Below are positions 9,973 through 21,395 of a DNA stretch of 64,000 nt, one piece after another. The DNA is from Phycisphaera sp. (lineage in GTDB: Bacteria; Planctomycetota; Phycisphaerae; Phycisphaerales; Zrk34): NCBI GenBank assembly GCA_016125285.1, contig WGMA01000006.1:121145-185144 (forward strand), read 5' to 3'. The notes beneath the pieces are model-generated. The model had not been told where the DNA came from, made no database searches, and was given only the letters and a program-made list of their open reading frames with translations. Numbering within the stretch: the stretch's first letter is position 1; each line of letters begins with the position of its first letter. The position numbers and the translations under genes were made by a program.

Positions 9973-11598
9973 TCAGTGGTCCCATGAAAACTCGGTCGAG
10001 TTGATCAGCACCCAGTACAGGTCTTCCAGCGCCCGGTTACGCGACGGGCCCTTCGTGTCCTTGAGCCGGGTGACGAAGTGCTCGCGCTCGGCGTCCGTGG
10101 GGCGGCGGGAAAGCACGGCCAGGTACGCGGTCTCGATCGCGGTCGCGTCGTCGGGCGCGAGCACCGCGATGCGCGTCGCGGCGTTCATCACGAGGTTTTC
10201 CTTCGTGCGATCCTTGACCATGTTGCCGTTCATCATCAGCAGCCGCTGCGGGATCGTGCCGCCGCGGTCGACGAACTCGTCCTCGCCGGTGTCGCCGTAG
10301 CGCTGCACGAAGCCGTTCTCCTGCGCGAACCGCGCGATCTTCATGATGATGTGCGACTCGGCGTCGATCGTCTTCAGCGACGCCGACTGCAGCACCGCCC
10401 CGGCGACCTGCTCGGGACGCAGGCGCGACATCGGGAACGCCGCCCAGCAGTTCTCGTGCTTCTTGGTGATCTCGACACCCTCCGGCGCCCGGCTGTCGAG
10501 CTGGTACACGCGTGTCGCCGCGATGAGTCGCATCAGCCGACGCAGGTCGTAGCCGTGCGCCACAAAGTCGTCGGCCAGCGTCTGCATGCCCGGCGGGTAG
10601 GGCGGCTCGAGCGGGATCTCGTCAATCGGGTCGACGAGCGGGCGGCCGAACATCAGCGCCCACACGCGGTTCACCGTCGCCCGAGCGAACGCGCCGTTGT
10701 CCTTGTTCGTCACCCAAGCCGCCAGCCGCTGCCGAGCCGTGCCCTGCTCCGGCAGCAGCTCCTGCGCGAAGGGCACCACCGGCGGCACCTTCTCCTCGGT
10801 GTCGTGGTGCAGGTACTTGAACTCGTAGTCGCGTTCCTTGTCACGCACGCCCGTCGCCGTCATGTCCGTCCCGGCGAAGAACGCCGCGAGGTGATGAAAG
10901 TCCGACTGCTTCCAGCGGTCACCCAGCTTGTCGTTGTGGCACTGCACGCAGTCGATCCGCACGCCGAGGAACGCACGCGACACGCGCGCCGCGAGCTTCA
11001 CCTCGTCCGGCCCGCGCTCCTTGTTGTTCTGGTCGATCGTCACCGTCACGAAGTTCACCGCCGGGTTGTTCGTCCACAGCCCGTCGCCCGCGATCAGCTC
11101 ACGCGTCAGCTGGTCGTAGCTGACGTTCTGCTGCACCTGGTCGCTGAGCCACGTCACGAACCGACGCCGCCGGTACACCAGGAACGGCCCGCCCTCGACG
11201 CCCACGTACGCCCGCGCCAATCGCTCCGCCACGTAGTCCGAGTACCGCCGATCCTCCAGCAGGTGCGCCACCCACCACTGCACCCGCTGCTCGGCGGGCA
11301 CCTGCTCGAACACGCGGATCTCCTCGATCGACGGGATCGTCCCGGTCAGACCCAGCGACAACCGCCGCGCGATCGTCAGGTCGTCCGCCCGCTCAACGGG
11401 CGTCAGCTTGCTCCGCGTCCAGTACTCCGCGAACTCGCCGTCGATCTTGTCGACGACGCTGCGGAAGTCCTCCCGCTGGTTGATCTGCCAATCCAGCGAC
11501 CGCGCCGCCGGCGGCGCGTCCACCTTCAGCAGGCTCGCCGCCACCGCCCCGAACCCCGCCAGGCAGATTGCGATGAAAAGTAGGTTCCGTTTCCACAT
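9973..11598 (-). CDS. DUF1549/DUF1553 planctomycete protein with CxxCH motif
   Basis: 541-aa exported or membrane-anchored protein. The N-terminal helix LLFIAICLAGFGAVAASLL could be an uncleaved anchor. DUF1549 features follow (DLTIARRLSLGLTGTIPSIE, RYSDYVAERLARAYVG), then one c-type heme motif in RIDCVQCHNDKLGDRW, and a DUF1553 region (ATVNRVWALMFGRPLVDP, RLRPEQVAGAVLQ, LYWVLINSTEFSWDH). Unlike the protein at 1-1690 it lacks the N-terminal cytochrome C domain. It is followed by a DUF1501 gene after 29 bases, the standard planctomycete pairing. The ATG at 11598 places the hydrophobic helix at the N-terminus; a start ten codons upstream (11628) is also open. Confidence 0.9.
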   Translation of the reverse strand: MWKRNLLFIAICLAGFGAVAASLLKVDAPPAARSLDWQINQREDFRSVVDKIDGEFAEYWTRSKLTPVERADDLTIARRLSLGLTGTIPSIEEIRVFEQVPAEQRVQWWVAHLLEDRRYSDYVAERLARAYVGVEGGPFLVYRRRRFVTWLSDQVQQNVSYDQLTRELIAGDGLWTNNPAVNFVTVTIDQNNKERGPDEVKLAARVSRAFLGVRIDCVQCHNDKLGDRWKQSDFHHLAAFFAGTDMTATGVRDKERDYEFKYLHHDTEEKVPPVVPFAQELLPEQGTARQRLAAWVTNKDNGAFARATVNRVWALMFGRPLVDPIDEIPLEPPYPPGMQTLADDFVAHGYDLRRLMRLIAATRVYQLDSRAPEGVEITKKHENCWAAFPMSRLRPEQVAGAVLQSASLKTIDAESHIIMKIARFAQENGFVQRYGDTGEDEFVDRGGTIPQRLLMMNGNMVKDRTKENLVMNAATRIAVLAPDDATAIETAYLAVLSRRPTDAEREHFVTRLKDTKGPSRNRALEDLYWVLINSTEFSWDH

Positions 11599-11678
11599 GC
11601 CGTGTGCCCCATTTGGGTGTCCAACCAAGCATACCCGACGCGGCGGGCGCGGTTGCGGGTAGGGAATTAAGGCGCGGA

Positions 11679-13193
11679 TCAGTCGATGTTTTGCTTCTCA
11701 AGGATTGAAAGCCAGGGATCGTGAAGAACGAGGTCGGCCCTGTGGTTTTCCCACCATGATCGAAAGTGCTCATACGCCCAAGCGCGATAGTCGGCGGGTC
11801 TGCCCGATGCAGGGGTCGTCGGATAAGGCAACGGGATACCGCTCTGTTTAGCAGAATTGGTCAGCAGGATCATGACGCGCTCGGGGAGATGGAGATGAGA
11901 AAACTGTCGTGCGTAGTTGATCTGAACGAACTTGCCAGACCCAAAGCGATTTTCGATGGGAGGCGATTTGAGAGCGTCGAGTGCTCGGTCCATCGCTGAT
12001 TTGTCGCCGTGACGTGCGAGGGTCAGTGCCGCCCAGATTCCCGGGTTGCCGGGCAGCTTCATCAACTCTCTAAGCTTGGCCTTGCCCATCGCCTCGTCTT
12101 CAAAGCAGAGGTATGTGGCCCCAGTGACGCGGACGTATGGGTCCTTCGCCTCGGTCAGTGCGAGAAAGTGCTTTCGTCGATCAACGGCGCACTGCATAGC
12201 GAACATGGACGCGCGGACATAGCCCATGTCGTCGTACGAATTGTCTTCGTCTCTGAAGTCCGTCTTCAGCAACGCGTCGACAGCACTATCGGGGGTCTTC
12301 AGCGGACGTTCGAATGCGACAGGTTCCTTCAACTCGCCAGGAGGTCCCGGGGCGACCCTGGGCCGCAGTGCAAGGACGCGCGGAATGGACGGGTCGACAC
12401 GCTCAATGAGCTTATCGCAATAGTCGCCTATGTCACCTGTTAGCGAGGTGATCTTCGTCCGCAGGGCGGCTGCGGTCGTCTCTGGTGAACGAAGCAGATC
12501 GTCAAGTTCGGCCAGCCTCTTCAAGTCAGCCGCCTCAATCAAGAAACTCCCATCTGTAATGGGACCGAGTGGTTCCTTCTTCGACCTAGCGGCCTTGATG
12601 CCCGCCTGTATGAAATCGCTTTCCATCACTTTGCTGAGCGCGTCGCGAAGCACGGCAATCTCAACCAGTTCAGCCGGGCCTTCACGATAGGCCATAACAG
12701 CCTCACGCATCCGCTTTAGTTCGCTCGATTTTGTGATGTGGTAAAACGGATTGTCGTCTATCAGGTCCGCCATGTTGTTCACGGCGTCGCACTCGATAGG
12801 TAGGCGCCCGATCTGCAGCAGCGCCGTTTGATAATGTGCGGGAATCACGCGTAGCCACAGCGGGATTCCTGACGGGCCCGACGTGCTAAGTATGTCGGAC
12901 GGGTCTTGGCTCTTGAATGCGACGAACACGAAACGTTGCCCAACCAGCGACGTTTGAAACTGCTGGCCCCAGTAGTTGACGTATAGGCGGAGGCGCACGA
13001 TTTCACCGGGCTTATGCTGACCGGTCCAGCACTCGATGACCTTGTAGTCCGCGACGATCCCGCCCGAGGTGACGCACTCGACGACACCGATGAAATCCGC
13101 TTGGGCAACTATTTCTGGCCATGGAATATGCCTAACCGATGTGGCCTCAACGCGCGAACCCACCAGGAGCAGTAGCAGGCACCCAAAAGTCAT
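11679..13193 (-). CDS. Exported protein of unknown function
   Basis: 504-aa protein with a signal peptide (MTFGCLLLLLVGSRVEATS). After this, a region (IVAQADFIGVVECVTSGGIV, VIECWTGQHKPGEIVRLRLY) resembles a small secreted beta-barrel module found in planctomycete proteins, and the C-terminal half (about residues 330-500) contains HEAT-like helical segments (VRVTGATYLCFEDEAMGKAK, PGIWAALTLARHGDKSAMDR). No family is firmly recognised. The start chosen places the signal peptide first; the frame is open 54 codons further upstream but that sequence is polar and lies in the gap to the divergent gene at 13324. GC content is lower by eye than in the neighbours, which may indicate acquisition. Confidence 0.75.
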   Translation of the reverse strand: MTFGCLLLLLVGSRVEATSVRHIPWPEIVAQADFIGVVECVTSGGIVADYKVIECWTGQHKPGEIVRLRLYVNYWGQQFQTSLVGQRFVFVAFKSQDPSDILSTSGPSGIPLWLRVIPAHYQTALLQIGRLPIECDAVNNMADLIDDNPFYHITKSSELKRMREAVMAYREGPAELVEIAVLRDALSKVMESDFIQAGIKAARSKKEPLGPITDGSFLIEAADLKRLAELDDLLRSPETTAAALRTKITSLTGDIGDYCDKLIERVDPSIPRVLALRPRVAPGPPGELKEPVAFERPLKTPDSAVDALLKTDFRDEDNSYDDMGYVRASMFAMQCAVDRRKHFLALTEAKDPYVRVTGATYLCFEDEAMGKAKLRELMKLPGNPGIWAALTLARHGDKSAMDRALDALKSPPIENRFGSGKFVQINYARQFSHLHLPERVMILLTNSAKQSGIPLPYPTTPASGRPADYRAWAYEHFRSWWENHRADLVLHDPWLSILEKQNID

Positions 13194-13323
13194 CCCGTAG
13201 TTTTTGCACACTGAACACCCCGAATCTGAGTCCGATCGCAAATTCGAACTTGGCAGCCAGCGGATTATAGGCGTCGGTGCAACCCACCGGTACGTCTGTG
13301 GTAAGTTGGTTGGGAGCGCACGC

Positions 13324-14664
13324 ATGTCTGAAACGGTTGCCGAGAGCACGAACACGCATGTCGTCGAGGTGGCGCGGATGGCGGATGGGCCGCTGGATCT
13401 GACCGAGGACGTGGCCGAGTCGCGGGCGGAAGCCTACGCGGCGGGCGGTTCGGATTGGGTCGGGCCGGTCACGGACGCCGCCGCCGAGGTTATTACCGGC
13501 GGCGGGGCGGACGCGGGTGAAGGTGAAGCCAAGCCGCGCCGTGGGGTGAGGGACTGGATCAGGCTGCTGTATCGCTGGACCGCGTCGGCGATCGACTGGC
13601 TGTTCGGGGCGGTGACGATGATCGTCACGCTGGCGGTGCTGGCGACGATCCCCGTGCTGAACCTGCTGAGCCTCGGCTACCTGCTGTCGGTCAGCGGGCG
13701 GGTCGCGGCGTCGGGGCGGCTGCGGGACGGGTTTCCGCTGATCCGTCGCGCGTCGGTGATCGGGCGGATCGTGATCTGCTCGGGGTTGCTGCTGCTGCCG
13801 GTGCGGTTCGTGTCGGACCTGTGGGAGTCGGCCCGGCTGATCGACGCCTCGAGCGTCAACACCACGGCGTGGCGCGTCGCGCTGATCCTGCTGACCACGC
13901 TGACCGTGTGGCACATCACGTGGGCGATCATCCGCGGCGGTCGCGTGCGGCACTTCCTCTGGCCCGCGCCGCGGCGCTTCGTCCGCTGGCTGCGCACGCC
14001 GGGCAAGTACGCAACGATGCGCGACAAGGTCTACGACTTCGTCGTCGCGCTCGACCTGCCGGGCTACTTCTGGCTCGGTGCACGCGGGTTCGTCGCGACG
14101 GTGATCTGGCTGATCGCGCCGGTCGCGGTGCTGATGGCGGCGATGAGCACCGCGCCCGACCAGGGCGGCGGGCTCCTCGCGTTTGTCGGCATCGTGATGC
14201 TGGCGTTCGTCGTGCTTTACCTGCCGTTCCTCCAGTGCCACTTCGCCGCGGAGAACCGCTTCGGCGCGATGTTCGAGTGGCGGACCGTGCGGCGGATGTT
14301 CAACCGGGCGCCGATCGCGTGGTGGGCGGCGCTGCTGATCATGCTGCTGTTCGCGCTGCCGCTGTACCTGCTGAAGATCGAGCTGACCCCGGCCGAGGTC
14401 GCTTGGCTGCCGAGCCTGGTGTTCGTGATGTTCATCTTCCCGGCGCGCCTGCTGGCCGGCTGGGCGGTGGGGCGGGCGCGTCTGCGTGAGGAGCCACGGC
14501 ACGGGTTCTTCCGCTGGGCGGCGCGGCTCGGGTTCGTGCCGGTCGTCATGGCCTACGCGCTGATCGTCTACGGCACGCAGTTCGTCTCGTGGTACGGCAC
14601 GCTGAGCATCCTCGAGCAGCACGCCTTCCTCGTGCCCGCGCCGATGCTCGGCTTCGGGCATTGA
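13324..14664 (+). CDS. Multi-pass membrane protein of unknown function
   Basis: 446-aa integral membrane protein. About 75 polar N-terminal residues are followed by at least seven hydrophobic segments, for example AVTMIVTLAVLATIPVLNLL, VIWLIAPVAVLMAAM, FVGIVMLAFVVLYLPFLQC and AALLIMLLFALPLYLL. The segment NLLSLGYLLSVSGRVAASGRL resembles planctomycete membrane proteins of the DUF4013 kind, but the assignment is loose. The ATG at 13324 is supported by GGGAG at normal spacing. It is the first of three consecutive plus-strand membrane genes (13324-15998) that could be co-transcribed. Confidence 0.78.
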   Translation: MSETVAESTNTHVVEVARMADGPLDLTEDVAESRAEAYAAGGSDWVGPVTDAAAEVITGGGADAGEGEAKPRRGVRDWIRLLYRWTASAIDWLFGAVTMIVTLAVLATIPVLNLLSLGYLLSVSGRVAASGRLRDGFPLIRRASVIGRIVICSGLLLLPVRFVSDLWESARLIDASSVNTTAWRVALILLTTLTVWHITWAIIRGGRVRHFLWPAPRRFVRWLRTPGKYATMRDKVYDFVVALDLPGYFWLGARGFVATVIWLIAPVAVLMAAMSTAPDQGGGLLAFVGIVMLAFVVLYLPFLQCHFAAENRFGAMFEWRTVRRMFNRAPIAWWAALLIMLLFALPLYLLKIELTPAEVAWLPSLVFVMFIFPARLLAGWAVGRARLREEPRHGFFRWAARLGFVPVVMAYALIVYGTQFVSWYGTLSILEQHAFLVPAPMLGFGH

Positions 14665-16839: not shown

Positions 16840-17709
16840 TCACGGCGTCGACGCAAGCTTCGAGTGCTTTTCGATGAACGCGAAAACCGCCTCGGTTGGC
16901 TTGTCGCCGGGCTTGCCGAGGTTGGCGTTGATCGTGCCGTGGTTCGTGCCCTCGGCGGGGACGACGGTCGCCTCGATTCCCGTCGCGTGCAGCGCCTCGG
17001 CGAACTTGTTGGACCGCTCGCCGGAGTCCTGGCGGTCCGCCACGTGCAGCAGCAGGAACGGCGGGATGTGCCGGTCCTTCGCGACGTGCGTGATTGGCGA
17101 CAGATCGCGCTGCGTCGCCTCGTCTTTCGTGAACGCGCCTGTATAGGTGCCGCTCCGCAGCGGACCGATGCTCGCGAGCTGCGCCGGCACGTCGTACGCC
17201 GCGGTGTCCACGGGGAAGCAGCCGCTGATGTCCTTCAGCGACATACCCTCGGCCTCGAGGTAGCGGCCGTCCGTGCAGACCAGCGCGGCGAGGTGCGCGC
17301 CCGCCGAGTGTCCCGCGACGAATAGCTTCGTGGAGTCGCCGCCCACCTTCTCGACGTGATCGCGCACGTAGCGGATCGCCTTCGCGACGTCGCCGGTCAT
17401 CTCCTTGACCGTGACCCTCGGCACGAAGCGGTAGTTGATCGACACGAAGACTAAGCCCTTGTCGACGAACGCCTGGGGTTTGATCTGCACGCCATGTTTG
17501 TCCCCGGCCCGCCACCCGCCGCCGTGGATCCACACGACGACCGGGTGTCCACTGCCCTCCGTCGGCGCGTACACGTCGAGCGCCTGCGTTTCGACGTTTG
17601 CGTCGGTGTAGTGGATGTCCTTCTTCGTCTGCATCTCCGCCGCGCGGACGAGCCCCGCGTGCGCGAGCAGCGTCAACGCCAACAGGCCGATCAGTGTGGT
17701 GCTCTTCAT
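16840..17709 (-). CDS. Exported alpha/beta hydrolase (esterase)
   Basis: 289-aa secreted alpha/beta hydrolase of the esterase/BD-FAE type. A signal peptide (LIGLLALTLLAHAGLVRA) is followed by the oxyanion-hole motif VVWIHGGGWRAG, the nucleophile elbow VAGHSAGAH, and a C-terminal GTNHGTIN with the catalytic His. The substrate is unknown; acyl or feruloyl esters of polysaccharides are typical. It is convergent with the GDSL hydrolase. A second paralogous-type hydrolase lies at 30831-31799. Between its start (17709) and the tRNA-like repeat (17792) no gene is seen. Confidence 0.9.
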   Translation of the reverse strand: MKSTTLIGLLALTLLAHAGLVRAAEMQTKKDIHYTDANVETQALDVYAPTEGSGHPVVVWIHGGGWRAGDKHGVQIKPQAFVDKGLVFVSINYRFVPRVTVKEMTGDVAKAIRYVRDHVEKVGGDSTKLFVAGHSAGAHLAALVCTDGRYLEAEGMSLKDISGCFPVDTAAYDVPAQLASIGPLRSGTYTGAFTKDEATQRDLSPITHVAKDRHIPPFLLLHVADRQDSGERSNKFAEALHATGIEATVVPAEGTNHGTINANLGKPGDKPTEAVFAFIEKHSKLASTP

Positions 17710-17791
17710 GCTGTGCCCTACATGGATGTGCGTGTCGAGGTTGCTTAGAGGTCAGACGCACGGCGGGGCGGAATATTGTGGCGGCGCGGCC

Positions 17792-17844
17792 GTTGGCGCA
17801 TTAAAAAAGCCTCGCGTGTGCGAGGCTTCAATACCCCCTAGGGG
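17792..17844 (-). repeat. Duplicate of the tRNA-Glu 3' end plus terminator
   Basis: Reading the minus strand, positions 17844-17830 are identical over 15 bases to the 3' end of the tRNA-Glu gene (19961-19947), followed by a terminator hairpin (GCGAGGC/GCCTCGC arms, loop of 4, then T6) in the same place as the real tRNA terminator. The nine bases GTTGGCGCA beyond the T-tract (plus strand 17792-17800) also match 19910-19918. The stems differ in sequence but keep pairing. The rest of the tRNA is absent. It also terminates transcription from the 17974-18531 gene. It is either a relic of a second tRNA gene or an attachment-site-like copy bounding the low-GC island. Confidence 0.75.
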
Positions 17845-17881
17845 GGTCGGAAGACGGGGAATCAAAGAGTTACGTCGATTT

Positions 17882-17947
17882 ACCAACCCCGTTGAGGGTC
17901 GAATTCGGGTCAAACGGGGTTGGTGCGGGGTTGGTAGCGGGGTTGGT
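17882..17947. repeat. Left ACCAACCCC repeat cluster of the low-GC island
   Basis: Four copies of the 9-mer ACCAACCCC or its complement: one forward (17882) and three reverse (ending 17924, 17935, 17947). The first two form a perfect 12-bp inverted repeat (ACCAACCCCGTT, 19-nt loop). The three reverse copies are spaced 11-12 bases apart, giving G-runs that could form a two-tetrad quadruplex. A mirror-image cluster lies at 19814-19864. Confidence 0.85.
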
Positions 17948-17973
17948 GAAAATGAGCCATTTTGTCTGAAATG

Positions 17974-18531
17974 CTACTTCACCTTGATGGTTGTAGAGCA
18001 TTCTGCAACGGCGGACTTTCCCTTCTCCTGCGACTCTACATAAATACCAAGCTTCACCTTGTACTCTGCGGCCAAGGTCATATCGAAAATCCGACTAAGG
18101 CAAATCGTGCGCGTTACGGTTTCTCCGGGCTTCAGAGTTACATCGGGTACGACGGATACCAATCCTGAGACTCGTTCCTCAAGCCAAGCGCCGTAGTTTG
18201 TCAGTTCAGCATCAACGTTCTCGAAGTACTTGATGTCGAAACTGACATCAGCGAAAACCTTGTCGTCGCCGTTGTTTTGGTACTTTGCAGATGTATCGGA
18301 GACGTTCTTGAGCGTTAATTGAACGACAATCGGACCATCTCCTGAGGTTTCCTTCTTGCATAACAGGCCGAGTTGAAACGCGCCATTTCGTTGCCCCCAG
18401 ATGATGTCCTCCTTTGGCTGATTGCTGTCATCAGCGCACCCAGTCGCATTTCCAGCAACTGCATGCATCACAGACAAAGCGGGAAAGGTCGCGACTATTA
18501 GGACTACAGTCAGAGAGGTTCGTCTGGGCAT
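17974..18531 (-). CDS. Secreted protein of unknown function in low-GC island
   Basis: 185-aa protein with a signal peptide (SLTVVLIVATFPALSVMHAVAG) and a beta-rich body containing VVQLTLKNVSDTSAKY and a C-terminal segment with LKPGETVTRTICLSR, reminiscent of Ig-like or intracellular-proteinase-inhibitor-like beta-sandwich domains; no firm family. The start overlaps the end of the upstream gene by 22 bases, so the pair is coupled. Base composition is clearly AT-richer than the surrounding chromosome. A secreted partner of the larger beta-rich protein is a reasonable guess, nothing more. Confidence 0.72.
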   Translation of the reverse strand: MPRRTSLTVVLIVATFPALSVMHAVAGNATGCADDSNQPKEDIIWGQRNGAFQLGLLCKKETSGDGPIVVQLTLKNVSDTSAKYQNNGDDKVFADVSFDIKYFENVDAELTNYGAWLEERVSGLVSVVPDVTLKPGETVTRTICLSRIFDMTLAAEYKVKLGIYVESQEKGKSAVAECSTTIKVK

Positions 18532-19802
18532 TCTTGGAACTCCCCAAGGTTGGGTTTGCGGGTTGTAGTGGCATTCTCAACATTCTTCGTCCATGTGGGA
18601 AGCATGCCTCCCACATCTTGAACTGAACCCATCTCGCTCGTTCCAGAGACGGTCCAATTATTTGGGTCGCCGCCATTTCGTGTAGCGCGACCACACCACT
18701 TCCACTCTACCTTCTTAATTGGAACAATGATACTCTTTGAAATTCGTCCGTCGCACAGGTGCTGCTTAGGCTTGAATCCAATATACATCGTGAAGCTATC
18801 GTTGATTGCCACGCCTATTGTAGAGCGAGCGTTGAGGCCATTTGCGGTCAATTCGCGCTTAGACGCGAGTACATCGCCCGGAGAGTCAATGGCAATTCTC
18901 TTTGTTGAATTGGTGTTTGAGAAGGGGAAAGATCTGTCATGACCTGAGGCGGTTCTTACTTCACTTAAGCTAGGGTTGTTCTTTCGGAATGCTCGTGTTG
19001 ACGATTCAACAATCTGAAACCAAACGAGTTCGCCATCGCAATCAGCGGGAGGTTCAAATGTCTGAATATTGAAGAGAACACCAGGTGTTCCAATGGGATT
19101 CCCCTCGGCATCGAACGCGAAGCCATCACCGATGTGCAAGAACCTTCCATTCGGCAACTTCGTGCGGTCGCGAAAAAGGTTTCCTTCTATGTCTCGATAC
19201 CTTGTAACATCGTCTGTGACAGCACCGGGGGCTGTCGCCATGAGCATGATATTTGGCTCCAATACGTTGAACGTAGCCTCAGCACTGCAACTCATGGTAT
19301 CGGATATATTCAAGGTAATCGTTACTCGGTTCATTCCACCTTCTACCCAGTAGAATTCCAGTTTTGGCTGGCGATACCTTATAGGTCTTACCGCTACCAC
19401 TTCGCCCTTGTTCTTATCTGTCTTGTAATCGTCAACAATCATGCCTTCCACGGCCCACATCCGCGCGCCGGTTGTCTGTGTCGGCTTGACCTGAATCTCT
19501 AAGTCGGCGCGAACACCAACGCATGTGTTCTGGGTAGTATCTGAGACAACTTGACCGCATGATAGAATGTCCACTTGTACTGCGGTAACCTTGACTTCGT
19601 CTTTGCAGGAGTGACTGCCTGATTTGTATTCCGCGACGATTGAATCGTCGCGTGGGGCATTGCTATGGTGGATTGCCTCCACAAGGAATGACGCTGAATT
19701 GGATCCTTCCGAGAACTGCAAAGTTGCCCCGCTTGCGACAAGGGAAAATGGAGCCTCACTTCCCTTCCATAGCAGCAGATTTCCTGAGTATGTAAGCGTC
19801 AC
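18510..19802 (-). CDS. Large beta-rich extracellular-type protein, probably N-terminally truncated
   Basis: 430-aa protein of unknown family with Ig-like beta-strand patterns (MTLTYSGNLLLWKG, KDEVKVTAVQVDILSCG, VTITLNISDTMSCSAEATFN) and a C-terminus with several cysteines and Trp. It has no signal peptide and opens directly in a beta-strand, and an in-frame stop sits only four codons upstream inside the ACCAACCCC repeat cluster. This suggests that its 5' part was lost and that the GTG at 19802 is a makeshift start (a weak AGG lies upstream). It overlaps the next gene by 22 bases. GC is low by eye. It may be a pseudogene fragment of a larger surface protein. Confidence 0.6.
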   Translation of the reverse strand: MTLTYSGNLLLWKGSEAPFSLVASGATLQFSEGSNSASFLVEAIHHSNAPRDDSIVAEYKSGSHSCKDEVKVTAVQVDILSCGQVVSDTTQNTCVGVRADLEIQVKPTQTTGARMWAVEGMIVDDYKTDKNKGEVVAVRPIRYRQPKLEFYWVEGGMNRVTITLNISDTMSCSAEATFNVLEPNIMLMATAPGAVTDDVTRYRDIEGNLFRDRTKLPNGRFLHIGDGFAFDAEGNPIGTPGVLFNIQTFEPPADCDGELVWFQIVESSTRAFRKNNPSLSEVRTASGHDRSFPFSNTNSTKRIAIDSPGDVLASKRELTANGLNARSTIGVAINDSFTMYIGFKPKQHLCDGRISKSIIVPIKKVEWKWCGRATRNGGDPNNWTVSGTSEMGSVQDVGGMLPTWTKNVENATTTRKPNLGEFQECPDEPL

Positions 19803-19813
19803 CGTAACCTGTC

Positions 19814-19864
19814 ACCAACCCCGTTTACCAACCCCGTGCGGGGTTGGTGACGAGTGGGGTTGGT
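19814..19864. repeat. Right ACCAACCCC repeat cluster of the low-GC island
   Basis: Two forward copies (19814, 19827) and two reverse copies (ending 19848 and 19864) of the 9-mer ACCAACCCC. The second and third form a tight hairpin (ACCAACCCC, 4-nt loop, GGGGTTGGT). Together with the cluster at 17882-17947 it brackets the two low-GC genes. Confidence 0.85.
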
Positions 19865-19920
19865 AGATGATGGCAGAGCTGGAGGGTCTAAGTTGCGGGG
19901 AATCAGCAGGTTGGCGCAAT

Positions 19921-19944
19921 AAAAAAGCTCTGCGTGAGCAGAGC
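19921..19944 (-). terminator. tRNA-Glu terminator
   Basis: On the minus strand, directly after the tRNA, a 7-bp stem (GCTCTGC/GCAGAGC, 4-nt loop) is followed by six T residues (A6 at 19921-19926 on the plus strand). Confidence 0.88.
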
Positions 19945-19948
19945 CTAA

Positions 19949-20021
19949 TACCCCCTAGGGGATTCGAACCCCTGTAGCTGGACTGAGAATCCAGAGTCCT
20001 GGGCCACTAGACGAAGGGGGC
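19949..20021 (-). tRNA. tRNA-Glu (anticodon CTC)
   Basis: 73-nt cloverleaf on the minus strand: acceptor GCCCCCT pairs with AGGGGGT, D-arm GTCTAGTGGCCCAGGAC, anticodon arm CTGGA-TTCTCAG-TCCAG giving anticodon CTC, and T-arm AGGGG-TTCGAAT-CCCCT. The 3' CCA is not encoded. The gene is followed by an intrinsic terminator. Its last bases and terminator are duplicated at 17792-17844 beyond the low-GC island. Confidence 0.96.
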
Positions 20022-20053
20022 AAGCGGTCTTTGGGCCAACCGTCGGACGCGGC

Positions 20054-20081
20054 ATTGTATCGGGCGGCGTGGGGAATTCAA
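20054..20081 (-). promoter_or_regulatory. Sigma-70-like promoter of tRNA-Glu
   Basis: Minus strand: -35 TTGAAT (20076-20081) and -10 TACAAT (20054-20059) with a 16-base spacer, 32 bases before the mature tRNA 5' end. The remaining gap to 20114 shows no gene. Confidence 0.55.
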
Positions 20082-20114
20082 GCCCCGGGGGCCGGCGTGC
20101 TGAAGCGCGAGCGG

Positions 20115-21395
20115 CTACTCGGCGCCGATGCAGGTCAGGTGGCCGAGCGAGCGGAGGTACATGCGGCCGTTGGCGACGGCGGGGGTCGAATAGCTCAGCT
20201 CGCCGAGCGGGTTGACGGAGACCGGCTCGTACTTGTCGCCGGCCTTGAAAACGACGACGTCACCGTTGCGGTTGATGACGTAGATGTAGCCGTTGACGCA
20301 GACGGGCGAGCCGAAGAAGTCGCCGCCGAGGCGTTCACGCCACTTCACGTCGCCGGTCTTCGCGTCGAGGCACGTGGCGACCCCGCCGTCCCACACGAGG
20401 AACAGCAGGCCGTCGACGTGCAGCGGCGTCGGCACGTAGGGCGCGCTCTTGTCGATCTTGTAGACGAGGTCGGCCTTGCTGGACGGCTCGCTGGGCGGGC
20501 GGATGGCGACGAGGTAGTTGCCGCCGCCGCCCGAGCCGCACGTGCCGATGACCAGGTCGCCAACGGTCACCGACGAGCTGACGCTGCGCAGCTTGAACAG
20601 CGGTGTGCCGCCCGCCTCGCGGACCTGCCAGTTGACCTTGCCTGTCTCGGGGTCGATCGACGTGATGCCGTTGAGGCGTGCGTTGCAGATCAGTTCGTCG
20701 CGACCGTTGACGTTGCGGATGCTCGGCACGGAGTACGCGGTGGCGCCGCTCTCGCCGGTGCCGCGGTCGACGATCCACTTCGTCTTGCCGGTGCGCTTGT
20801 CGACGGCGATGATGCTGCTGGGGCCGATCTGATCGTTGGTGAGGATCAGCAGGTCCTTGTAGACGATGGGGCTGGTGCCGTTACCGTGCTGGCTGTCGAA
20901 GGGGCCGAGGTCCTCGCGCTTCCAGACTTCGTTGCCGCCGTGGTCGAGGGCCATGAGCGTGATCTTTTCGGGCGTGGTCCAGTAGACGTAGACGCGCTCG
21001 TCGTCCACGGCGGGCGTGGTCGAGCCGAAGCGGTTGAACTTGTGGTGGGCGTACTTCGACGAGGCGTACTGCTTGACCCACCGCGTGCCGCCGTCGCGGG
21101 CGTCGAGGCTAATGACGAACCGCGTGGCGGTGGCTTCGTCGGCGGAGAGCACGAACAGCTTGTCGCCCCACAGCACGGGCGCGCCGTGGCCCTCGCCGGG
21201 CAGGTCGACACGCCAGCGGTAGTCCGACGCGGCCCACTTCGTGGGGATCGTCTTGCAGTCTGACACGCCGGCGCCGTTGGGCCCGCGGAAACGTGTCCAC
21301 TCCTGGGCGTGGGCGGCTTGACCGGCGATGGTCGCGGCGGCCAGGGCCAGCGCGAACATCGTCAGACGGGCGACGGTAGCAAGTCGGTAGGGCAT
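20115..21395 (-). CDS. PQQ-like beta-propeller repeat protein
   Basis: 426-aa exported beta-propeller protein. A signal peptide (LTMFALALAAATIAGQAAHA) is followed by EWTRFRGPNGAGVSD and repeated blades of the PQQ-binding-like type (ISLDARDGGTRWVKQYASSK, IAVDKRTGKTKWIVDRGTG, SIDPETGKVNWQVREAGGTP, TCLDAKTGDVKWRERLG). There is no evidence that PQQ is bound; in planctomycetes such outer-membrane or periplasmic propellers are common and mostly of unknown role. It is transcribed divergently from a second propeller gene at 21492, and a third lies at 22936, so the three are a local paralogue set. Confidence 0.92.
   Translation of the reverse strand: MPYRLATVARLTMFALALAAATIAGQAAHAQEWTRFRGPNGAGVSDCKTIPTKWAASDYRWRVDLPGEGHGAPVLWGDKLFVLSADEATATRFVISLDARDGGTRWVKQYASSKYAHHKFNRFGSTTPAVDDERVYVYWTTPEKITLMALDHGGNEVWKREDLGPFDSQHGNGTSPIVYKDLLILTNDQIGPSSIIAVDKRTGKTKWIVDRGTGESGATAYSVPSIRNVNGRDELICNARLNGITSIDPETGKVNWQVREAGGTPLFKLRSVSSSVTVGDLVIGTCGSGGGGNYLVAIRPPSEPSSKADLVYKIDKSAPYVPTPLHVDGLLFLVWDGGVATCLDAKTGDVKWRERLGGDFFGSPVCVNGYIYVINRNGDVVVFKAGDKYEPVSVNPLGELSYSTPAVANGRMYLRSLGHLTCIGAE

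Follow-up and report, generated by a model that had tools for sequence, protein, structure and literature searches.

How did two genes of low guanine-plus-cytosine (GC) content come to lie between two copies of the 3' end of a single transfer RNA (tRNA) gene and, just inside these copies, between two clusters of one short repeated word? This question is raised by a stretch of 64,000 nucleotides (nt) from a Phycisphaera sp. of the order Phycisphaerales (assembly GCA_016125285.1, contig WGMA01000006.1, positions 121,145 to 185,144), in the following termed the window. At positions 17830-19961 it harbors a low-GC island of 2.1 kilobases (kb), in which a two-gene cargo is enclosed by two perfect 15-base-pair (bp) copies of the tRNA-Glu 3' end. 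Because this duplication occurs together with clusters that are placed like the repeat pairs of islands in related genomes, we regard 17830-19961 as probably (about 0.72) a minimal integrative element, inserted by a tyrosine integrase whose gene it lacks, the clusters being predicted arm-type sites of that enzyme.

The presumed integration target is a tRNA-Glu gene with the anticodon CTC, located at 19948-20022 on the minus strand (ARAGORN; Rfam tRNA model, 55.9 bits). The 3' end of this gene forms part of the proximal core, the 15 bases from 19947 to 19961 which read AATACCCCCTAGGGG on the plus strand, and the displaced tRNA-Glu 3' fragment at the far end of the island, the distal core (17830-17844), is identical over all 15 bp. 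A third copy of AATACCCCCTAGGGG with at most one mismatch is absent from the own genome. Directly after the tRNA gene and inside the island follows a terminator-like hairpin with a T-run (19918-19946, minus strand). A second hairpin of this kind, different from the first, adjoins the distal core on its outside (17801-17829, minus strand) and presumably represents the original host terminator. When aligned with each other, both ends continue past the 15-bp core with a terminator-like hairpin, a T-run and then TGCGCCAAC, the hairpins differing in sequence. The first-pass annotation, made from the sequence alone, had described a duplicated tRNA-Glu 3' end plus terminator; the core is indeed duplicated without a mismatch, but the terminators are alike only in kind. 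In addition, the 10-mer CGGGGAATCA is present as a direct repeat at 17855-17864, near the distal core, and at 19896-19905, both copies being possible accessory sites. The low GC content noted in the same annotation is confirmed, with 49.5% for 17948-19813 vs 66.2% for the whole window, and extends to codon usage, since the GC content at third codon positions is 0.51 and 0.57 in the two cargo open reading frames (ORFs) vs 0.89-0.95 in seven neighboring genes.

The clustered word, ACCAACCCC, occurs in eight exact copies in the window, all of them in the two four-copy clusters that had been reported; shuffled sequences contained 0.17 copies on average and two at most, and none of 100 reached eight. 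The proximal cluster (19814-19864, 83-133 nt from the core) contains copies at 19814 and 19827 on the plus strand and at 19840 and 19856 on the minus strand, the distal cluster (17882-17947) one at 17882 on the plus strand and three at 17916, 17927 and 17939 on the minus strand. Read from the tRNA, the proximal arm thus shows two direct and two inverted copies and the distal arm three direct and one inverted, and all eight words are undamaged. Both pairs of boundaries, tRNA ends and clusters, are real, but instead of being nested in each other they are better read as a single structure of core plus arms, with both clusters as putative arm-type sites of an integrase.

Two other explanations of the clusters can be weighed at this point. 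In a transposon resembling a miniature inverted-repeat transposable element (MITE), they would be terminal inverted repeats, and the element would have inserted by chance between old tRNA fragments. The outermost copies are indeed inverted repeats of each other over 13 bp, at 92% (ATTTACCAACCCC / GGGGTTGGTAGAT). However, a target-site duplication, the other mark of MITEs and insertion sequences, was not seen by eye in the flanks, the own genome contains a single such locus and no second cluster, and the copy orientations (+--- and ++--) do not resemble simple terminal repeats, so that this is the least probable of the explanations considered here. Alternatively, the clusters could regulate the two-gene cargo, for instance as operators, with the tRNA fragment stemming from an older, separate insertion. 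A perfect 13-bp inverted repeat in the proximal cluster, directly upstream of the first cargo ORF, would suit an operator. The second cluster, however, lies downstream of the last gene, where no operator role is obvious, and both clusters are positioned just inside the cores, much as the repeats in the islands of relatives; we consider a regulatory origin unlikely.

The first-pass annotation had named, as something that would refute its proposal, that the clusters are a common intergenic motif. In the own genome, the clustered word is confined to this locus. The 10-mer ACCAACCCCG occurs 36 times genome-wide, including seven times in the island, and at the 23 of the 29 outside loci that were viewed it was in every case a single copy within a locus of up to 3 kb. 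Across the order, pairs of ACCAACCCC within 9 nt were found in 34 of 400 genomes, the own genome included. Of the 42 loci viewed (36 with such a pair, a few of them overlapping), none showed a tRNA or integrase match in the flanking sequence, which extended to at most 1.5 kb, and many read as proline-rich coding repeats (PTPxPTP, TNPxTNP) or C-rich runs; three pair places (G120 C24, G238 C24 and G166 C1) lacked a locus and are outside these 42. Coding repeats may also explain the excess of a spacing of 12 among the order-wide pairs, and five viral contigs with three copies of ACCAACCCC read as proline-threonine coding repeats. A general intergenic motif of the order is rejected on these loci, and the combination of cluster and tRNA at the present locus is unique among the loci viewed. 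As a separate observation, loci L060 and L069 show, by eye, tandem ACCAACC repeats directly 5' of an alaS-like gene in genome G097, with no link to an island.

The tRNA-Glu 3' end serves as an integration site in relatives as well. A search with the tRNA end gave matches in 46 of 61 genomes, including the own one. Among 22 tRNA-Glu places of relatives, 20 with the anticodon CTC and two with TTC (23 loci, L089 being the same place as L045 and counted once), a sequence of the tyrosine-integrase family abuts the tRNA 3' end at seven, six of these at CTC. This family is widespread in the order, where 163 of 301 genomes, counting the own one, have a match, and it sits at many tRNA genes. Three of the integrases have C termini that finish with PPRGVEPL and a few further residues, a sequence that results from reading the tRNA 3' end on the opposite strand. 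Genome G036 carries a complete tRNA-Glu(CTC) island of 7.8 kb (L106, 2999-10870), bounded on both sides by a copy of this 3' end; it encodes an integrase, a DUF3987 protein, an HTH_17 protein and an SNase-like protein. Its integrase matches Phage_integrase below the Pfam cut-off and is 32% identical over 496 positions to the integrase of genome G013. In genome G004, a partial integrase and the tRNA are located at the end of one contig and the second tRNA end on another, and the tRNA-Glu(TTC) islands L149, L171 and L175 are bounded by direct repeats (16, 17 and 15 bp, respectively) that cover the tRNA segment duplicated in the window. These relatives, integrating at the same tRNA 3' end, support the earlier proposal that a small non-autonomous element, mobile now or in the past, made use of the tRNA gene. 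In G004, the far end of the tRNA-Glu island (L107, about 11080-13541) further contains an ORF of 206 amino acids (aa), by eye nucleotidyltransferase-like and possibly a defence gene.

The islands of G036 and G004, both of which carry a repeated word inside both ends, prompted the idea of arms. Further islands were collected from 40 integrase loci that were hand-picked for their contig context, four of them because a tRNA-Glu was known beside them. At 34 of the 40, the initial 1.8 kb of the oriented stretch contained a tRNA on the expected strand, in ten cases a tRNA-Glu. Together with G036 and G013 this gave 36 loci, and a second copy of the tRNA-end word was found at 20 of them and in none of the stretches fetched for the other 16. 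Four loci (L109, L150, L162 and L173), where the repeat was short or not a tRNA end, were left out. The test set finally comprised 18 islands at tRNA-Glu and other tRNAs, namely 16 with a convincing repeat, G004 and the island of the window. A direct pair of 8-mers, 9-17 bp apart, was sought within 220 nt inside each end and compared with 40 shuffles. Fourteen of the 18 islands beat all shuffles: the window island, G036, G004 and 11 of the 15 others, which amounts to 13 of 17 relatives, with L176 as a weak pass. Although spacings of 9-17 bp were permitted, 12 of these 13 relatives show a spacing of exactly 12 in both arms. In a control with random pairs of real 220-nt windows, none of 30 pairs matched a passing island, except for one of 30 in the case of G004. 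The window island passes with no mismatch (0 of 40 shuffles, 0 of 30 real-window pairs); its pair word ACCAACCC is found at distances of 83 and 99 nt (proximal arm) and of 102 and 90 nt (distal arm) from the respective core, with one more direct copy in the distal arm and three inverted ones, two proximal and one distal. Hence the clusters, described earlier as matching no recognized type of element, call for no new type, as their position inside the cores resembles that of the paired repeats in integrase islands, which are likely docking sites of the respective integrases.

The arm word differs from island to island. Often it is TGCGCCGC, in G036 it is GCGCACCAC, and in others TTCTGCAC, TTTTGCGC, CGCTGCGC or TGCGTCGC. 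By eye, the G036 site CGCACCACTCCCG and the window site CGCACCAACCCCG agree at 11 of 13 bases. The pair TGCGCCGC-N4-TGCGCCGC is common to several islands, e.g. L159, L161, L180, L182, L183 and G004 (L107/L108), where it lies some 50-70 bp inward of the far end and is separated from the near core by 123-158 nt. From its exact matches in 101 genomes, 17 loci were hand-picked and sorted by eye. At four of them (L218, L220, L221 and L232) the pair is followed, at no more than 60 nt, by a tRNA-3'-like sequence, which is what the arm model leads one to expect of far ends; of the rest, two lie in integrases (L230 and L231), five are alaS-like and six were left unassigned by eye. A class of integrase-less islands marked by orphan TGCGCCGC pairs is not established from these 17 loci. 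One candidate, L221 as an integrase-less tRNA-Val island of 3.2 kb, was rejected: its fragment shares only the 12 bases GTTCGAGTCCTG with the tRNA, and no proximal pair was seen. The fragment does not derive from that tRNA-Val gene at a distance of 3.2 kb, and we do not count L221 as a second mini-island.

Between the cores of the window island, no integrase is recognized. Two ORFs fill the space and neither fits an integrase family in Pfam, PHROGs or NCBIfam, and a tblastn search of window positions 17001-21000 with three integrases gave nothing at 1e-3, in agreement with the first-pass annotation. An open frame of 36 codons (19867-19977, plus strand) ends in ...IPPRGFEPL, as do integrase C termini where they run over this tRNA. 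It could be an integrase tail or, alternatively, the product of the tRNA sequence and chance; its length is, by our estimate rather than by computation, not unlikely to arise by chance. Such a tail would fit a decayed remnant, i.e. a larger tRNA-Glu island from which the integrase and most genes were deleted, so that it persists as a fossil of two attachment (att) ends and two genes. The integrases at three of the seven relatives' tRNA-Glu places (L033, L090 and L094), which give short C-terminal matches only, suggest that such decay occurs. Moreover, the first cargo ORF may be a truncated larger gene, since its open frame starts abruptly at the cluster. On the other hand, neither the eight 9-mers nor the 15-bp core show a mismatch, both cargo frames are intact, and the proximal arm lies outside any integrase frame, unlike in G036 and G004, where it is inside the C-terminal coding part of the integrase. 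Decay is a serious possibility, to which we give somewhat less than even odds; it retains the arm-site reading of the clusters, so that its confidence overlaps with that of a minimal integrative element. As words, core and frames are undamaged, an element that is fairly recent or still usable is favored.

The cargo itself is poorly connected to known proteins. The first ORF (18510-19802, minus strand) has a GTG start and encodes 430 aa; the second (17974-18531, minus strand) encodes 185 aa and overlaps the first by 22 bases. The label "secreted-type" genes applies to the 185-aa protein, which has a signal-like N terminus, but not to the 430-aa frame, which has none (both judged by eye). Neither protein has a match in Pfam or NCBIfam, and PHROGs yielded nothing convincing for them, a single match at an expectation value of 0.025 for the 185-aa protein. 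Among about 5.8 billion proteins searched, the 185-aa protein matches itself only and the 430-aa protein itself and one protein of 402 aa with a Big_2 domain, to which residues 72-408 align at 27% identity. A two-member profile of these adds six proteins, with P0008 aligning over 78% of the query. The 430-aa protein, for which 101 genomes were searched, has no match in the 100 others, the 185-aa protein being outside this search. Relatives of the first ORF were found neither in phages, plasmids and genome contigs nor in viral contigs, and P0002 used as query against genome contigs gave none either. Structure predictions are poor, with a mean predicted local distance difference test (pLDDT) of 33.5 and 47.4, too low for a structure search. 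An immunoglobulin (Ig)-like surface or secreted role of the cargo may be inferred. By eye, P0002, P0004-P0007 and P0009 are long proteins with the common stretch SNFSCPNCCQQEP... or a close one, diverging afterwards; the first island ORF resembles the C-terminal part of P0002.

The order of parts, starting from the tRNA, is core, terminator, proximal arm, two-gene cargo, distal arm and core, and corresponds to that of a lambda-like phage attachment site (attP) split by integration. In a reaction of the lambda type, the N-terminal domain of the integrase would hold the arm sites while the catalytic domain exchanges strands within the core. An attP consisting of distal arm, core and proximal arm would recombine with the tRNA 3' end, the element restoring the tRNA gene and the old 3' fragment being displaced to the far side. 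ACCAACCCC would be the arm-type word of an integrase outside the element, provided by a helper in trans unless the gene for the enzyme was deleted. Binding of an integrase to these words, continued mobility, and helper supply or gene deletion are what we infer from the sequence pattern.

Several observations weigh against such an element. The similarity of its ends past the core, through terminator and TGCGCCAAC, is not predicted by a simple reaction between attP and the bacterial site attB. It would fit a tandem-duplication scar of the tRNA end, with the low-GC genes gained by homologous recombination and no site-specific element involved, as the similarity runs through a diverged terminator to TGCGCCAAC. 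Yet the duplicated part is the integration segment used in relatives, and a scar leaves the arm-like pairs at both ends unexplained, which makes it very unlikely. As for the arms of the proposed integrative element, the proximal spacing is 16 bp and not 12, and its pairs start 83 nt (proximal) and 102 nt (distal) from the cores, slightly beyond the 85-146 and 60-84 of the 13 passing relatives. Its three inverted copies are exact, while the inverted matches of relatives allow one mismatch and many overlap direct copies, and its word poorly resembles the common TGCGCCGC. Four of the 17 relatives' islands (L163, L164, L169 and L175) fail the arm test, with L169 equaled by five of 40 shuffles. No island combining arms of ACCAACCCC with an integrase was found in genomes of the order or in viral contigs, the three pair places without a locus excluded. 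Nor can an empty site be shown, since the genes flanking the island were not found at the 22 tRNA-Glu places of relatives and no listed relative belongs to the same genus. Finally, the own genome possesses 11 Phage_integrase loci, several beside tRNAs, and the cluster of ACCAACCCC/ACCAACCC is absent from the 1.5-kb flanks of all of them; for this reason, this assembly, which is 97% complete, probably lacks the helper integrase.

The integrase loci on the own contigs C34 (tRNA-His) and C21 (tRNA-Glu(TTC)) carry sequences other than the ACCAACCC cluster. Contig C34 (L111/L212) holds a second island, in which a related integrase lies between the tRNA-His and a 26-bp repeat of its 3' end, at a distance of about 3.5 kb. 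At L208 (7588-8904), an own-genome integrase frame runs into a tRNA-Glu(TTC) and has a 12-bp-spaced pair of TGGGTGGCC in its near arm; its far end was not found in the 16 kb examined.

Interpreted as a minimal integrative element, the locus has its strange repeat pattern explained by a mechanism that is borne out in related genomes. The resulting signature, a displaced tRNA fragment and, some 50-100 bp inside it, a repeat pair with a spacing of about 12 bp, would allow integrase-less islands to be counted, which are missed by finders that require an integrase. If such minimal units are mobile, accessory genes could spread on about 2 kb with borrowed enzymes only. Among the papers listed by the literature searches, no title or opening of an abstract mentions such mini-islands or these arm sites. 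Membership of the island in an unrecognized class of miniature integrase-free cassettes, which use tyrosine integrases of tRNA sites in trans as MITEs use transposases and comprise only a single small operon enclosed by the attP core and arm arrays, is unlikely.

Known systems share individual traits with the island. MITEs and CALINs (clusters of attC sites lacking integron-integrases) are described as helper-dependent hitchers (PMC11389934). Likewise, the island would be a non-autonomous, perhaps mobile unit which keeps sites for a helper recombinase, but it is not a short, gene-free unit of terminal repeats, and the presumed helper is an integrase of tRNA sites. Tycheposons, tRNA-bordered cargo elements of 4-200 kb with a tyrosine recombinase gene (described in PMC10872708), have the tRNA border and the cargo in common with it, whereas the island measures 2.1 kb and shows no recognized recombinase. 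In actinobacteriophages with lambda-like integrases, tRNA-derived cores are flanked by paired, putative arm-type sites (PMC10865867). The island similarly combines a short core in a tRNA gene with repeats in both arms, but differs by four copies per arm, partly inverted, and by the lack of phage genes, the arm sites being putative. The Islander approach (PMC4383910) covers genomic islands of tyrosine integrases at tRNA and tmRNA genes and requires an integrase gene inside; a restored tRNA and a displaced 3' fragment mark the island ends here as well, although no integrase gene is recognized between them. Cis-mobilizable elements (CIMEs), which have lost their integration and transfer genes and retained the left and right attachment sites attL and attR (PMC5704250), correspond in having att-like ends on both sides, a tRNA target and no recognized integrase or transfer gene. 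The island differs from them by its size of only 2.1 kb, its two uncharacterized ORFs and its intact, extended arm arrays, and the likeness is one of layout; gene loss and descent from an integrative and conjugative element (ICE) or integrative and mobilizable element (IME) would be further assumptions. On the best reading, the island belongs with the decayed or cis-mobilizable islands already known, as a compact form of them, and does not constitute a new class of mobile element.

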